Notes under the pieces: generated by a model | Database searches by the model: none | Seen by the model: the letters and a program-made list of their open reading frames with translations, nothing else | What the model was told of the DNA's origin: nothing | In this document: positions 8,070 through 15,139 of the stretch, in pieces | Layout of the letters: the number at the start of each line of letters is the position of its first letter | How positions within the stretch are numbered: the stretch's first letter is position 1 | Made by a program: the position numbers and the translations under genes | IMG/VR virus record: IMGVR_UViG_3300025057_000762 | Location: 1 to 23,054 of that record | DNA length: 23,054 nt | Direction: 5' to 3' (one strand) | From: a virus

Positions 8070-8501
8070 TCAGCAGCGATGATTTTGCCAATATCGATCC
8101 CACCGCAGGGCGGCACCGCTACGGACCATCGCACAGCTGATGTCGCCGCTGATCGGCGACACGCACCATGCGGCAGTTCTTTCACCTTTTCCCCATCCCA
8201 CCGAGCGACAGCGCATCGTCGGGCCGTTCACCAGACGATGGCCGTATGGCCCAAAGCCGCCCGGCGTACCCAGCAAGGCAGCCAGAGTGTCGCGCGCACC
8301 ACTACCACCCACGCGCGGGCATGGTTGCCCCGGTCGGCACGTGTCGTCGATTTCGCGCGCGGCGATACCCGCCAGGCGGATACGCGGTCCCTCCGCACAC
8401 CAGATCGGCCCGTCACCATCCCACACAGCCACGGGCGTGCAGTCGAAAGATTGACCGGCAGGGACTATGGGCGTGTTCGCCAGCAGGAGCGCGAAGATCA
8501 T
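8070..8501 (-). CDS. Secreted thermonuclease-like (SNase-like) protein, opposite to the late genes
   Basis: This minus-strand gene encodes 143 residues from the ATG at 8501. The N-terminus (MIFALLLANTPIVPAG) looks like a short signal peptide. The rest resembles the SNase fold: a DGDGPIWC stretch (D30 at the place of Ca-binding D21 of staphylococcal nuclease), IRLAGIAARE with R42 and E50 matching catalytic R35 and E43, and a late ERTAAWC segment that may supply the third catalytic arginine. D40 of the model enzyme is replaced by alanine (A47). Five or more cysteines fit a periplasmic, disulfide-bonded protein. An in-frame ATG at 8537 is possible; neither start has a good ribosome binding site. 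The gene converges on S and diverges from J, with the second palindrome upstream. P2 has nothing here; it behaves like a moron. Family call is likely, activity is unproven. Confidence 0.72.
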   Translation of the reverse strand: MIFALLLANTPIVPAGQSFDCTPVAVWDGDGPIWCAEGPRIRLAGIAAREIDDTCRPGQPCPRVGGSGARDTLAALLGTPGGFGPYGHRLVNGPTMRCRSVGWGKGERTAAWCVSPISGDISCAMVRSGAALRWDRYWQNHRC

Positions 8502-8561
8502 CGCGCGAGTATGACAGGTCCCATCACCTGACACCATTGCCACCGAACGCACGCGCCCTGC

Positions 8562-9520: not shown

Positions 9521-10158
9521 GCATCCTCCCACCCAACTCGACCCCGCTTGAGCGCGCGTTCGACCAGGTCGAAGAAGAGCGCCTCGGCTCTCTACCCTTG
9601 CCCGTGGGCGATGTCTGGAACCCGCAAACCTGCCCCGCACCGCTTCTGCCTTGGCTCGCCTGGGGCATCTCAATCGATATCTGGGACACCAACTGGACGG
9701 AACCGGAGAAGCGTGCCGCCATTGCCGACGCGATCGCCGCCCAGCGTCGCAAGGGCACCCGCGCGAGCCTGCGCACAGTGCTCGACCGCTTCGACCCGCT
9801 GATCGAGATCGTCGAATGGTTCGAGGACCGGGTCAATCTCGACCCGCACACGTTCCGCCTCGAACTGCCTCTCTCGATCGAGAGCGCCGTTGAATACGAC
9901 GCCGCGCTGATCACCTCGCTGCTCGCCGATATCGCCAAGGTGAAGCCGCTCCGGTCGCACATGTATGCAGTTCACCGGATGCGCGCGCAGGCAGCCGCTG
10001 GCCTGCTCGGCGCGGGGCGCGATGCGGGTCACACCCGGCTCGATGCCACCGCCGATGTCGACGCTGCGCAGGACCCAATCTGGGCGAGCTACCTGCAATC
10101 CGAGGATGGCGAGCCAATCCGGCTTGAAGACGATAGCGGATTTCTGGAGGCGGCATGA
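9517..10158 (+). CDS. I: Phage tail protein I, P2 gpI family
   Basis: This 213-residue baseplate protein is longer than P2 gpI (about 176). The core motif is clear: STPLERAFDQV near the start, VGDVWNPQTCPAPLLPWLAW, then ISIDIWDTNWTEPEKRAAI and RRKGTRASLRTVLD. In P2-type baseplates gpI joins gpJ to the tail fibre. The last roughly 50 residues (from about 165) go beyond the P2 protein and are acidic and Ala-rich; this extension may adapt the wedge to the different fibres here. I chose the GTG at 9517, which overlaps the J stop codon (GTGA) and gives the usual N-terminus; the frame is open further upstream inside J. The end overlaps the fibre gene by four bases (ATGA). Confidence 0.92.
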   Translation: MSILPPNSTPLERAFDQVEEERLGSLPLPVGDVWNPQTCPAPLLPWLAWGISIDIWDTNWTEPEKRAAIADAIAAQRRKGTRASLRTVLDRFDPLIEIVEWFEDRVNLDPHTFRLELPLSIESAVEYDAALITSLLADIAKVKPLRSHMYAVHRMRAQAAAGLLGAGRDAGHTRLDATADVDAAQDPIWASYLQSEDGEPIRLEDDSGFLEAA

Positions 10159-11216: not shown

Positions 11217-11665
11217 TCCTCTATAGCCCCAGCACCGGCGGCTTCTACGATGATGCCGTCCATTCGCCCGGTCGCATCCCCGGCGACGTGGTGACGGTAA
11301 CGTCTGCCCGCCGCGAAGAGCTGATCGAGGCGCAGGCGAGCGAGGCTCCGGTCGCGATCATCCCCAGCGAAACCGGCACTCCTGTCATGTCGCGCAGCCG
11401 CACCTTGAGCGACGCAGAGAAGCGCACCGTAAAGCTGGCTGGCCTGCGCGCCGAGCGTAGCCGGCGAATCGCGCTGATCGCGGACACCCAGCAACAGCTG
11501 CTCGATCTCAGGATCGGCGGCACTGAGGCGGATGCACGCAACGCCGAGATCGATGCCCTGGTCGCGAGCGCGGCGTCGATCGCCGCGCAGATCGACGCCG
11601 CCAGCGGTCAAACGCTGACCGACTTCGAAGTTTCGGACGATGCCCTGTGGGAGCCCGCGCCATGA
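11213..11665 (+). CDS. Tail fibre assembly (Tfa)-like protein
   Basis: This 150-residue protein follows the short fibre directly, where P2 has the fibre assembly chaperone G. It starts MILYSPSTGGFYDDAVH, a YSxSTGGFY-type opening that is common in tail fibre assembly proteins, then IPGDVVTVTSARREELIEAQ, close to the IPxDAVEIS-type segment. From about residue 65 on it is charged and helical (SDAEKRTVKLAGLRAERSRR, then a second helix 105-130), probably a coiled coil. I infer a chaperone for folding or trimerising one of the two flanking fibres. The ATG at 11213 overlaps the H stop, and its own stop overlaps the ATG of the large fibre. The assignment rests on position and on a short N-terminal similarity. 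Confidence 0.65.
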   Translation: MILYSPSTGGFYDDAVHSPGRIPGDVVTVTSARREELIEAQASEAPVAIIPSETGTPVMSRSRTLSDAEKRTVKLAGLRAERSRRIALIADTQQQLLDLRIGGTEADARNAEIDALVASAASIAAQIDAASGQTLTDFEVSDDALWEPAP

Positions 11666-14271
11666 GCAAAACCAGCCAGCTCCCCCAACTCGACCCAGCG
11701 CAGATCGACGGGAGCGAAATCGCCCCCGTGGTAAAGAACGGCGGGCTTTATCGCGTGCCGATCTCCGCGATCCCAGCCCCGCAGGCAGTTAGGGACCTGG
11801 GAAATTTGCTTGCGGCGGCTCGGCCCATCCGGATCATTTACAATTCCCGCGCGCTTGCCGAGGCTGCTCTCGACGCAGGCGAAATCACCGACGACACCGA
11901 AGTCTTCATTCGCGTTGACGAGCAATATGATGACAAGTTCACCCGCAATTTTGTGCGAGCTGGCGGGTGGGATATGGCCTACATCGAAACGCTGCCTTTC
12001 ACGCCGCAGGAGATATTCGCCAACCGCAAGGGTGCCTTCTACCTCCCGGCCAAGAAGCGTGGACTATATCAGGACCGCGCTTTCGCCTCTCCGGTGACGG
12101 GATCGGGCCAGAGCGTTGCCGCGATGGTGGACCGTTCGAAAGAGGATCATCCCGATCCGACGATCGCGCGGCGCAACCTTTTTGCCCGCACCGACAACAT
12201 GGCATCGGGCGTGTGGACCTACAGCCGGCTGACCGTAAAGCAGCGGTTCGATTATCCGACCCTTGGCGAAATACGGCTCGCGCGGATTGAGGAAACCGCC
12301 ACAAATGGGACGCATGCCTTTTCGAAGGCAGTCAACTTGGCAGCGGGTCTGGCGACCTACAGTCAGGTATTCAGCCAAGATGAGGTGAGCGCCGTCCGCA
12401 TGTACCTCGATAACGGCTACGTGGACTTCGATCTCGATTCAGAAACGGTCGGCGCGTTGAACGCAGGTCTAGCCGACGCGGACATGATCGACCTGGGTGA
12501 TGGCTTCTATCTCTGCTGGGTGCAGAAGATCGTTACTGCGGGCAGCAAGATTGCCGCTGTCTACCTGACACGTGGTGGATCGACCAGCTACGCAGGCACG
12601 CTGGGCGAAGGCCTCTACATGGGCGCGCCGCAGATAGAGGCAGGAGGCCTGACCGAGTATCAGCCCATCCAAGAAGACTCGCTTGGCTGGATGGGCGAAA
12701 ACATCATGGTCGCGCCCACGGACCCCGACCGCCCGACCTACATCGAGGAAGACGGGATCGGTCGCCTGCGCTTCAACGGTATCGATCAGTTCATGCGCTG
12801 CGGCGCGTTCGACCTGTTGAATGCTAGCAAGAAAGTGACCGTCATTGCACTTGCGCGGGCGGTCGGTTCGAGCACTGCGGTCTGGCTGCATCACGGGTCT
12901 GGCGACATCACGAACGCGCGCGAATTCTTCTTCAACTACAGCGTCGCAGGCGACACGGCAGCAGGGTTCGGCTCGGGCGGGCGGTATCAGCTCGGCAAGC
13001 CGGTTCACACCAATGCGGTGCCGAAGGACAGGCTGCTGGCTTACTTGTTCGATGCGGCGGAGCCCGATCAGAAGGTGCAGGCAGATATCGACGGCAGGCG
13101 TTGCCCGGTCGATTACACTCTGCGCAGCTTCCCGCTCAGCGGCGAAGAATCCCACGCGATGGGCGACCTTACTCTGGGCGGTCGCAGAGCTGCGAATGAC
13201 AGCCTGACGCTGCGCGCCGAGTTCGACCTGTTCGGGCTTTTCATCGTCGCGGCCGAGTTGAGCGAGGCTGAGATATTCGCATCCAAGCAGCGCCTGATCG
13301 AGGATACCGGCATCTCGCCCGACTTCCCGTCCTATATCGCGACGAAACACGATAACCTGTGGGACAGCAAGATCGGGGTTTACGATCATCCGCGCTGGCG
13401 GGTTTCGCCCATGTCGCGCCTCGTGTTCAATACCGAGGCGACCGAGCTGACGGTCCACCTCTGGAACGATATGAACAAGGCGGCCTTCCGCCATGTCGAA
13501 GTGAACGTGAACGGGCAGTTCTTCGCTCAGATTTCGCCCGGCGCGATGGGTTACAGCACGCACACTGTCACCGGCCTGCCGTTCGGGGCGAAGCGGATAG
13601 AGGTCATCAATGGGGCCCAAGCGCAGACGCTGGGCACCTTCGTGCTGGGCGTCGGGGCGGAACAGTCGCTTACCTATGTCGCTGAAAGCTTCGCCGAGCG
13701 GACGCATATGTTCGTAGACAGCATCGGCGTCGGCGATGCAGCGGGCAACCCGATCCGCGAGGGGGGGGTCATGCTCGCACGCGCCGCCGCTCCGGCAGGC
13801 ACGAGCCTCTTGGTCGACGGCTACGGGGTCAATTCTTGGTTCGACCAGGTAGGAGATGCCGCGAAACGTGCAGCGAGCGTCGCCCGCATTGTCGCGAGCC
13901 GATCCGGTAGGTTCTACAGCCAGATTTCGGTCAACGATTTCGCCTTCCGCGCGGAATACTGGAACAATGACCCGGCCAATATGGCGGCTGCGATCAGTCT
14001 CTTCCTCGACGATCTGCACGCCGCAGTGCCTGACCTCAAAGCCTTCCTGCAAACCTTTCTTCCGTGGAACTCCAGTACGAGTGAGCAACCCGCGTGGCGG
14101 GCGGCGATTGCAGGTCAGGCGACCGGGCGCGATTACGTGACGATCGTCGATGGCACCAATATGGGTGTCACTACCGCTGATCTGGTCGACGGCCCCCATC
14201 CAGGCACAGAGGGCCACTTCAAGTGGGCCACGAGCGAGAATGGTCTCATCGCGACGCTGGGGTGGGTGTGA
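11662..14271 (+). CDS. Large tail fibre/spike protein with LamG-like and SGNH esterase domains
   Basis: This 869-residue protein begins with a short segment (residues 6-40, QLPQLDPAQIDGSEIAPVV) resembling fibre anchor modules. Residues about 170-335 form a beta-rich module like carbohydrate-binding parts of phage fibres. Residues about 360-550 look like a LamG/concanavalin-type domain (LRFNGIDQFMRCGAF, then the late FDLFGLFIVAAELSEAEIFA). The C-terminal 190 residues fit an SGNH hydrolase: block I FVDSIGVG with nucleophile S687, block II DGYGVNSW with G722, block III SVNDF with N758, and block V DGPHP with D843 and H846. It probably binds and deacylates host surface polysaccharide. A run of eight G (13761-13768, codons 700-703) lies between blocks I and II. 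P2 has no counterpart. The start overlaps the Tfa-like stop (ATGA). Confidence 0.82.
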   Translation: MSKTSQLPQLDPAQIDGSEIAPVVKNGGLYRVPISAIPAPQAVRDLGNLLAAARPIRIIYNSRALAEAALDAGEITDDTEVFIRVDEQYDDKFTRNFVRAGGWDMAYIETLPFTPQEIFANRKGAFYLPAKKRGLYQDRAFASPVTGSGQSVAAMVDRSKEDHPDPTIARRNLFARTDNMASGVWTYSRLTVKQRFDYPTLGEIRLARIEETATNGTHAFSKAVNLAAGLATYSQVFSQDEVSAVRMYLDNGYVDFDLDSETVGALNAGLADADMIDLGDGFYLCWVQKIVTAGSKIAAVYLTRGGSTSYAGTLGEGLYMGAPQIEAGGLTEYQPIQEDSLGWMGENIMVAPTDPDRPTYIEEDGIGRLRFNGIDQFMRCGAFDLLNASKKVTVIALARAVGSSTAVWLHHGSGDITNAREFFFNYSVAGDTAAGFGSGGRYQLGKPVHTNAVPKDRLLAYLFDAAEPDQKVQADIDGRRCPVDYTLRSFPLSGEESHAMGDLTLGGRRAANDSLTLRAEFDLFGLFIVAAELSEAEIFASKQRLIEDTGISPDFPSYIATKHDNLWDSKIGVYDHPRWRVSPMSRLVFNTEATELTVHLWNDMNKAAFRHVEVNVNGQFFAQISPGAMGYSTHTVTGLPFGAKRIEVINGAQAQTLGTFVLGVGAEQSLTYVAESFAERTHMFVDSIGVGDAAGNPIREGGVMLARAAAPAGTSLLVDGYGVNSWFDQVGDAAKRAASVARIVASRSGRFYSQISVNDFAFRAEYWNNDPANMAAAISLFLDDLHAAVPDLKAFLQTFLPWNSSTSEQPAWRAAIAGQATGRDYVTIVDGTNMGVTTADLVDGPHPGTEGHFKWATSENGLIATLGWV

Positions 14272-14753
14272 TGGATTTCGTCATCGCCATCACCAACGGG
14301 TTCCGCGCATGGGGAGCCGCATCGCTGCTGCTTGCCCTGCCCGTGCTGGTGCCGGCCATCGTCTCCGCGCTGCGCGGGGCGTGGATGGCGGGCTGCAATG
14401 AGGTGCGGCTGTCTGTGCAGACGCACCGGATGCGCGTGCTGCGGGTGTTCCTGATCGCGTTGTGGCGTGAAGGTCAGGCGCAGCCGTTGCCGGTCAACCT
14501 GTGGGCGATTGTGCCGATGATGCTGTTCCTCGGCATCGCAGGCAGTTCGATCTTCATCGCCGACCTCTTCGGCCAGGGTTTCTACGATCCCCGGCTGACC
14601 GCGATCATGTTCGCGGCCTGGCTGCTGATCGCCTGCGGGGGCTGGCTGTTCACGATCAGCAGCGTCCGTGATCCGATATCGATGTCGATCTGTTCGTTCC
14701 TCCTGCTGCTCACATTCACCATCCTTTCTCTGGGCGAGAAAGGTTTCCTGTGA
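14271..14753 (+). CDS. Polytopic membrane protein of unknown function
   Basis: This 160-residue protein has about four hydrophobic spans: residues 15-35 (GAASLLLALPVLVPAIVSAL), 77-98 (LWAIVPMMLFLGIAGSSIFI), 110-129 (AIMFAAWLLIACGGWLFTI) and 134-153 (SMSICSFLLLLTFTILSL). A basic cytoplasmic loop (HRMRVLRVFLIALWREGQ) lies between the first two. The ATG overlaps the stop of the large fibre by one base, and its end overlaps the holin candidate by four bases, so it belongs to the fibre-lysis operon. I do not recognise the family. By location it could be an extra holin or antiholin, or a superinfection-exclusion protein, but nothing in the sequence decides this. Confidence 0.7.
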   Translation: MDFVIAITNGFRAWGAASLLLALPVLVPAIVSALRGAWMAGCNEVRLSVQTHRMRVLRVFLIALWREGQAQPLPVNLWAIVPMMLFLGIAGSSIFIADLFGQGFYDPRLTAIMFAAWLLIACGGWLFTISSVRDPISMSICSFLLLLTFTILSLGEKGFL

Positions 14754-15139
14754 AGGGTACGACCGCCATCGCGGCCACGGTAACCGCCGCCTCCGTCCCC
14801 TCGGCAGCGGTAGAGGTCAACGTCGTCTGGACCATCGTTGTGCCCATCGTGGCGGCGTGGTTCGCGTTCGTCGGGATCGGTGTGCTTTCCGAAAAGAGCC
14901 CGCGCGATATCGCCCGGCAGGTGGCCGGGGGTGCCTGCCTCGGCGGTGTGGTCGGGATCGCGGCATGGGCGGCGATCGAGGCGATGCAGGCCGAGGGCAT
15001 CTTCGCTGCACTGGTGACGCTGACGCTCGCCGTCTCGCCGGTGCTGGTTTTCAAGACGCTGAGCAATGCGGGCCCCGACCTGATCGGCGCGGCATTCGGC
15101 GTGCTCGGGTTCGAGCGCAAGAAAAAGGATGACGACTGA
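14750..15139 (+). CDS. Putative holin (three-span, P2 gpY/LydA-like)
   Basis: This 129-residue protein lies just before the lysozyme. It has three likely membrane spans: residues about 25-47 (VVWTIVVPIVAAWFAFVGIG), 57-79 (QVAGGACLGGVVGIAAWAAIE) and 84-104. The pattern of a first span, then a Pro/Arg loop (KSPRDIARQ), a Gly-rich second span and a third span resembles P2 gpY and P1 LydA-type holins. The C-terminus ends in a basic, then acidic cluster (FERKKKDDD), which is frequent in holins. The start is a GTG at 14750 overlapping the upstream stop (GTGA). The stop overlaps the lysozyme start codon by one base. It would permeabilise the inner membrane to release the lysozyme. The family assignment is by topology and position rather than strong similarity. 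Confidence 0.6.
   Translation: MKGTTAIAATVTAASVPSAAVEVNVVWTIVVPIVAAWFAFVGIGVLSEKSPRDIARQVAGGACLGGVVGIAAWAAIEAMQAEGIFAALVTLTLAVSPVLVFKTLSNAGPDLIGAAFGVLGFERKKKDDD

Follow-up and report, generated by a model that had tools for sequence, protein, structure and literature searches.

Downstream of a complete tail fibre gene and a Tfa-like gene, a P2-like virus carries a further open reading frame for a protein of 869 residues, and the question raised by this locus is whether the product is a second receptor-binding protein tipped with an esterase. The stretch of DNA analysed, referred to here as the window, is 23,054 bases long and constitutes the complete IMG/VR record IMGVR_UViG_3300025057_000762. 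Its content is the late genes of a P2-like contractile phage. The minus strand carries a terminase gene and a partial gene that reads as portal-like; the plus-strand order is scaffold protease, capsid-region genes, J, I, the fibre gene H, the Tfa-like gene and the 869-residue ORF, with endolysin, V, W, sheath, tube, tape measure and U on its 3′ side. In a comparison of sheath proteins, the nearest relatives include viral contigs at 76–87% identity, and close sheath proteins are also found in prophage-like regions of a Sphingomonadales MAG (L025) and of Qipengyuania citrea (L026). Because the sheath relatives include these two regions, the host of the phage is most likely a member of the Sphingomonadales.

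Two features of the gene order lie outside the fibre genes themselves. The lysis genes (endolysin 15139–15732) and the baseplate genes V and W come 3′ of the fibre genes (window 14223–17541), a placement that differs from the P2 order; in close relatives, V and W are placed as in the window. Amid the late tail genes, on the minus strand at 8079–8546, is a small gene whose product is probably secreted and has a thermonuclease-like motif, DGDGP...IRLAGIAAREID, recognised by eye; a Pfam search with this protein gave no match. Its relatives occur in 57 plasmid records, the best at 61–70% identity. These plasmids are mostly from Sphingobium, Sphingomonas and Sphingopyxis, and 31 of the 57 are conjugative. 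We read the gene as cargo common to sphingomonad plasmids and the window phage.

The 869-residue reading frame is, as had been claimed, open from its ATG to its stop codon (Table 1), and the ATG overlaps the stop codon of the Tfa-like gene in the sequence ATGA (11662–11665). The matches to PF21882, phrog_15547 and phrog_188 establish that the short fibre gene and the Tfa-like gene upstream are real. A single-sequence AlphaFold2 model of the whole protein was uninformative (pLDDT 31), and no close relative of the whole protein or of its C-terminal domain was found in viral and genome contigs. Searches with P0001 in 399 Sphingomonadales genomes and with profile A3 in 289 Alphaproteobacteria genomes returned nothing. 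A tblastn search of 385 Alphaproteobacteria genomes with the C-terminal 280 residues gave weak matches only, and these were chance-like where the alignments were inspected. The original prediction placed two β-rich, carbohydrate-binding-like modules ahead of the C-terminal domain. The first is borne out by matches to PHROG 5939 and to a tail protein of Rhizobium phage P106B (tblastn E 1e-9). The second shows a partial match to XacN1; a Pfam search gave no match, and a LamG-like identity was discarded since the module matches none of the LamG-like modules of other loci.

Table 1. Features of the fibre region of the window (positions in the 23,054-base stretch)
Feature	Position	Strand	Details
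First tail fibre (gpH-like), 353 aa	10155..11216	+	Gp53-like C-terminus PF21882 E 4e-12; phrog_15547 E 1e-68
Tfa-like fibre assembly gene, 150 aa	11213..11665	+	phrog_188 E 6e-9; distribution
Putative second tail-fibre (slot-2) receptor-binding protein	11662..14271	+	869 aa; syntenic slot in relatives
N-terminal anchor, residues 1–38	11662..11775	+	Profile of 7 relatives
β-rich phage tail module, residues 169–340	12166..12681	+	phrog_5939 E 9e-6; P106B 48.5 bits
Second β-rich module, residues 345–575	12694..13386	+	Lectin-like by eye
Small β module before SGNH domain, residues 577–669	13390..13668	+	Inferred from position
SGNH esterase domain, residues 670–869	13669..14268	+	L102 bridge, AlphaFold2 model, Foldseek
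Block I VDSIGVG, nucleophile S687 (codon 13720–13722)	13714..13734	+	Canonical G of GDS = V685
Block II oxyanion Gly G722 (probable)	13825..13827	+	S-to-G 35 residues; loop after model strand 2
Block III N758 in SVND (canonical GxND)	13933..13935	+	Invariant in viral alignment
Block V D843-G-P-H846	14188..14199	+	Invariant DGxHP; N-to-D spacing 85

The N-terminal 38 residues carry the motif MxKxSxLP..DGSE..PVVK.G...R..IS.I, and a profile made from seven relatives scores the window protein at 48.8 bits, compared with 9.2 for the best of 5000 shuffles. This segment presumably attaches the protein to the virion. Related P2-like (pro)phages of the Sphingomonadales have the same anchor in a second-fibre slot, which lies between H/Tfa and V. 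The slot-2 protein of one relative (L002) is 62% identical over 37 residues, after which the similarity stops, and the slot-2 proteins as a set combine a conserved N-terminal anchor with a swapped distal body. Among 299 Sphingomonadales genomes, the anchor profile was found in nine, one being the known L026 genome, and nine further loci were read in the eight others. At all nine, the anchor gene comes after I and H, and also after J where the fetched stretch reaches that far. The relatives thus have, besides H, a second protein that bears the anchor and whose place is fixed, in keeping with the suggestion that the virion has two kinds of fibre, and we infer that the 869-residue protein would be a second, independently anchored receptor-binding protein.

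The distal bodies in this slot exchange freely and include β-helix-like, SASA-like and SGNH types. Some resemble β-helix tailspikes by eye, one of them with a weak match to Pfam Beta_helix (L004), and the body in L026 (L026:4422-6242) is a SASA-like esterase with weak Pfam support. Beside the slot, L031 has a GDSL esterase, L033 a SASA-like protein and L032 a polysaccharide lyase. SASA-like motifs of the form GQS...QGE/HGE... occur in or adjoining the slot at L026:4422-6242, L033:11952-13805, L159:2590-5025 and in the L160 slot-2 ORF; Pfam support for the L033 protein is weak, and the L159 and L160 cases rest on motifs. For L156, L159 and L160, the slot-2 body was assigned as SASA or SGNH from motifs recognised by eye, and a Pfam scan of the L156 and L159 bodies found no esterase family. 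The lyase gene, 3′ of slot-2 (L032:11952-13991), matches PF14099 (E 1e-12) and its product begins MAIKTSQKLK...; in L033, this N-terminus is joined to the SASA-like body.

At the C-terminus of the window protein, S687, G722, N758, D843 and H846 are found at the positions originally assigned to them. Alignment with 12 other viral SGNH domains upholds the view that this tail-fibre-like protein ends in an SGNH domain: the S, N, D and H residues are invariant, the complete invariant set being D686, S687, N758, D759, D843, G844, H846, P847 and G851. Residues D843 and H846 lie three residues apart within the sequence DGPHP near the C-terminus. The S–N and N–D spacings, 71 and 85 residues, respectively, are inside the range for the SGNH family, and the N–D spacing is identical in a Deinococcus SGNH enzyme. 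The motif set is beyond chance: when the C-terminal 200 residues were shuffled 200,000 times, the pattern DS...G...ND...DxxHP with SGNH-like spacing came up only 4 times, and without the proline requirement 235 times. G722 is a probable rather than an established block II glycine. It is supported by the predicted structure and by the spacing, but the alignment is ambiguous here, and a gapped MAFFT alignment prefers G713.

Direct searches with the domain gave matches below threshold. The sole Pfam match to residues 670–869 is Lipase_GDSL_2 (PF13472) at E 0.15, in the SGNH register, with a score of 13 bits that does not reach the curated cut-off of 32.9. The best PDB sequence matches, also below threshold, are the CE3 acetyl esterase entries 5B5S (E 0.41) and 5B5L (E 0.62), and the best plasmid match is a Deinococcus protein annotated as an SGNH/GDSL hydrolase (E 0.3). 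These weak Pfam, 5B5S and Deinococcus matches agree in register. A profile composed mostly of Sphingomonadales TesA-type proteins scored the domain at 1.1 bits, inside the shuffled range, and membership of the TesA-type GDSL esterases was set aside. The phage record L065 proved to be spurious.

The connection to the family is made by L102 (IMGVR_UViG_3300016665_000364), a protein of 198 residues brought in by a scan of viral contigs for a TND...DGxHP DNA pattern. It matches Lipase_GDSL_2 above the Pfam cut-off (E 1.6e-16, 61.8 bits) and its 180-residue alignment with positions 678–859 of the window protein scores 45.8 bits, against a maximum of 17.5 among 20,000 shuffles. Across the domain the two are 31% identical, their S, N, D and H residues line up, and the N–D spacing is 85 in both. 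L102 differs in that it is a stand-alone gene, adjoining a gene that is lectin-like by eye, and in retaining GDS and GTND. We conclude that the assignment of the C-terminal domain as a divergent SGNH domain is well supported. Elsewhere, in an ORF of L100 ending at 9675 and an ORF of L104 ending at 12961, a lectin-like module (by eye) is fused to a canonical SGNH domain.

An AlphaFold2 model of the domain calculated with a viral SGNH alignment has a pLDDT of 70 and a pTM of 0.70. It has a three-layer α/β/α fold with five parallel strands, which in SGNH order span residues 680–684, 714–717, 749–754, 794–797 and 826–829. In a layout that agrees with that described for SGNH enzymes (PMC9487903), the first and third strands are followed by S687 and N758, respectively, the loop that leaves strand 2 contains G722, and D843 and H846 lie just ahead of the final helix. 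The pLDDT is mostly below 50 for residues 702–732. Since the alignment is made up of SGNH enzymes, the fold is supporting rather than independent evidence. A Foldseek search with the predicted C-terminal domain, the check put forward with the original prediction, returned SGNH esterases. The PDB matches, 52 of them at E ≤ 0.001, are to GDSL, CE2, CE3 and related SGNH-fold enzymes; SsfX3, sialate O-acetylesterases, PAF acetylhydrolases and peptidoglycan O-acetyltransferases are also in the list. Among the viral matches are the Pectobacterium phage PP99 tail spike and the tail fibres of phages CN1A (Clavibacter) and Sin4 (Klebsiella).

The matches to SsfX3 (3SKV, the top match) and to the CE2 entries 2WAA, 2WAO and 4XVH are to cellular enzymes with about 14–19% identity to the window domain. 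The chain in 3SKV, as in several of the CE2 entries, extends beyond the SGNH domain and includes a β-rich domain besides, and an N-terminal jelly roll is present in CE2 enzymes (PMC9487903). The window protein has a third stretch upstream of its SGNH domain, residues ~577–669, which the earlier account had passed over; it may correspond to this additional domain, and possibly resembles the N-terminal β-sandwich of the CE2/SsfX3 enzymes.

The reading that we favour, with a probability of roughly 75%, is that the protein is an anchored second receptor-binding protein of a P2-like Sphingomonadales (pro)phage, whose C-terminal SGNH hydrolase would deacylate a host glycan. The conserved N-terminus would hold the fibre on the virion, with the β-rich modules, the small β module and, at the tip, the hydrolase. 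There, S687, activated by H846 and D843, would attack the ester carbonyl, and the oxyanion would be stabilised by the NH groups of S687 and G722 and by N758. O-Acyl groups, probably O-acetyl, would be removed from the surface polysaccharide of the host during adsorption, leaving the backbone uncut.

It is unlikely that the SGNH fold has been kept while useful catalysis has been lost, leaving a tip that only binds sugar. Two glycines that hardly vary among the 12 other viral domains are missing from the window protein, where V685 stands in for the glycine of GDS (block I) and S756 for that of GxND (block III), and the ambiguity at block II points the same way. Neither position is catalytic, and the replacements may mean weak, altered or absent activity. 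S687, N758, D843, H846 and probably G722 have, however, all been kept despite the low identity (~31%) to the nearest relative, which argues against the loss of catalysis.

Sphingomonads have glycosphingolipids in place of LPS, so that the usual O-antigen target may be missing. The SGNH superfamily, moreover, includes lipases and peptidoglycan-modifying enzymes (PMC9487903). An active esterase directed at a lipid, a glycolipid or acylated peptidoglycan, rather than at an O-acetylated polysaccharide, is nevertheless quite unlikely given that the fold matches include the carbohydrate esterases CE2 and CE3, that proteins in or adjoining the slot look sugar-active (SASA-like, polysaccharide lyase), and that capsule or O-antigen is the known or predicted target in the characterised phage systems cited below.

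On the favoured reading of glycan deacylation, a more specific proposal can be made tentatively. Sphingans such as gellan are acylated and so are plausible targets of the putative esterase. The domain could represent a divergent SGNH subfamily, marked by VDS and SxND, that strips acyl groups from sphingomonad-specific glycans such as acylated sphingans and that alternates with other types of enzyme on a shared second-fibre anchor; we regard this as possible rather than probable.

The Tfa-like protein had been suggested to serve one or both fibres. Its gene lies between the two fibre genes in the window and its closest relatives, an arrangement expected if Tfa were to fold or attach both and the SGNH fibre depended on it. 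At five of the nine further loci, however, the slot-2 gene starts 3–22 bases after H with no Tfa gene between them, and service to both is improbable; at the other four, a Tfa-like gene occupies a gap of 443–485 bases between H and slot-2. An SGNH tip would, in addition, be unlike a Tfa-dependent fibre tip. Similarity in H is full length at two of the four Tfa loci and extends to residue ~300 at the other two; at three of the five loci lacking Tfa, it covers essentially the first ~175 residues. It reaches further at the remaining two (L155 and L157), so that the correlation of Tfa with the H tip is imperfect, and the pairing of Tfa with H is drawn mainly from the five slot-2 genes that have no Tfa beside them. 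From this distribution, Tfa most likely serves the first fibre and not the SGNH fibre. An unrelated fibre tip in which the SGNH motifs arose by coincidence, as the sub-threshold Pfam and TesA-type profile searches might suggest, is scarcely credible, being contradicted by the L102 bridge, the motif shuffles and the full-domain alignment.

Receptor-binding proteins tipped with SGNH domains are already known from G7C gp63.1, Possum gp66 and Klebsiella prophages. The gp63.1 tailspike of Escherichia phage G7C is an SGNH deacetylase of O-antigen (PMC6393563, PMC13123978), and its reaction is essential for infection even though the polysaccharide backbone stays intact (PMC6393563). It shares with the window protein an SGNH domain in a phage receptor-binding protein, and it is swapped for lyase-type alleles in relatives (PMC6393563), just as the slot bodies are swapped here. 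G7C differs in being a podovirus with gp63.1 attached through gp66; moreover, activity and substrate have been shown for gp63.1, whereas those of the window protein are predicted, and a search for a sequence match between the two found none. A polysaccharide deacetylase domain is likewise part of the tail fibre or spike in Pectobacterium phages Possum (gp66; PMC9569702) and PP99 (PMC6989608), the latter spike being a Foldseek match of the window model. The SGNH domain of Possum gp66 lies in the middle of the protein, ahead of a separate C-terminal part (PMC9569702), whereas that of the window protein forms the C-terminus. With the SGNH tail fibres of Klebsiella prophages, the window protein has in common a temperate phage background and the C-terminal position of the SGNH domain, the host group being different; two of these fibres are active acetyl esterases that hydrolyse p-nitrophenyl acetate (PMC13123978).

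What is new here is the lineage, sphingomonad P2-like phages, and the divergent SGNH sequence. Esterase-tipped receptor-binding proteins, recently reported to be common in Klebsiella prophages (PMC13123978), would be extended to P2-like phages of the Sphingomonadales, bacteria with unusual surface glycans whose phage receptors have been little studied. The proposal that Tfa belongs with the first fibre is testable. The second-fibre slot is fixed and is defined by a recognisable 38-residue anchor, which makes possible a survey of the enzymes used by sphingomonad phages.
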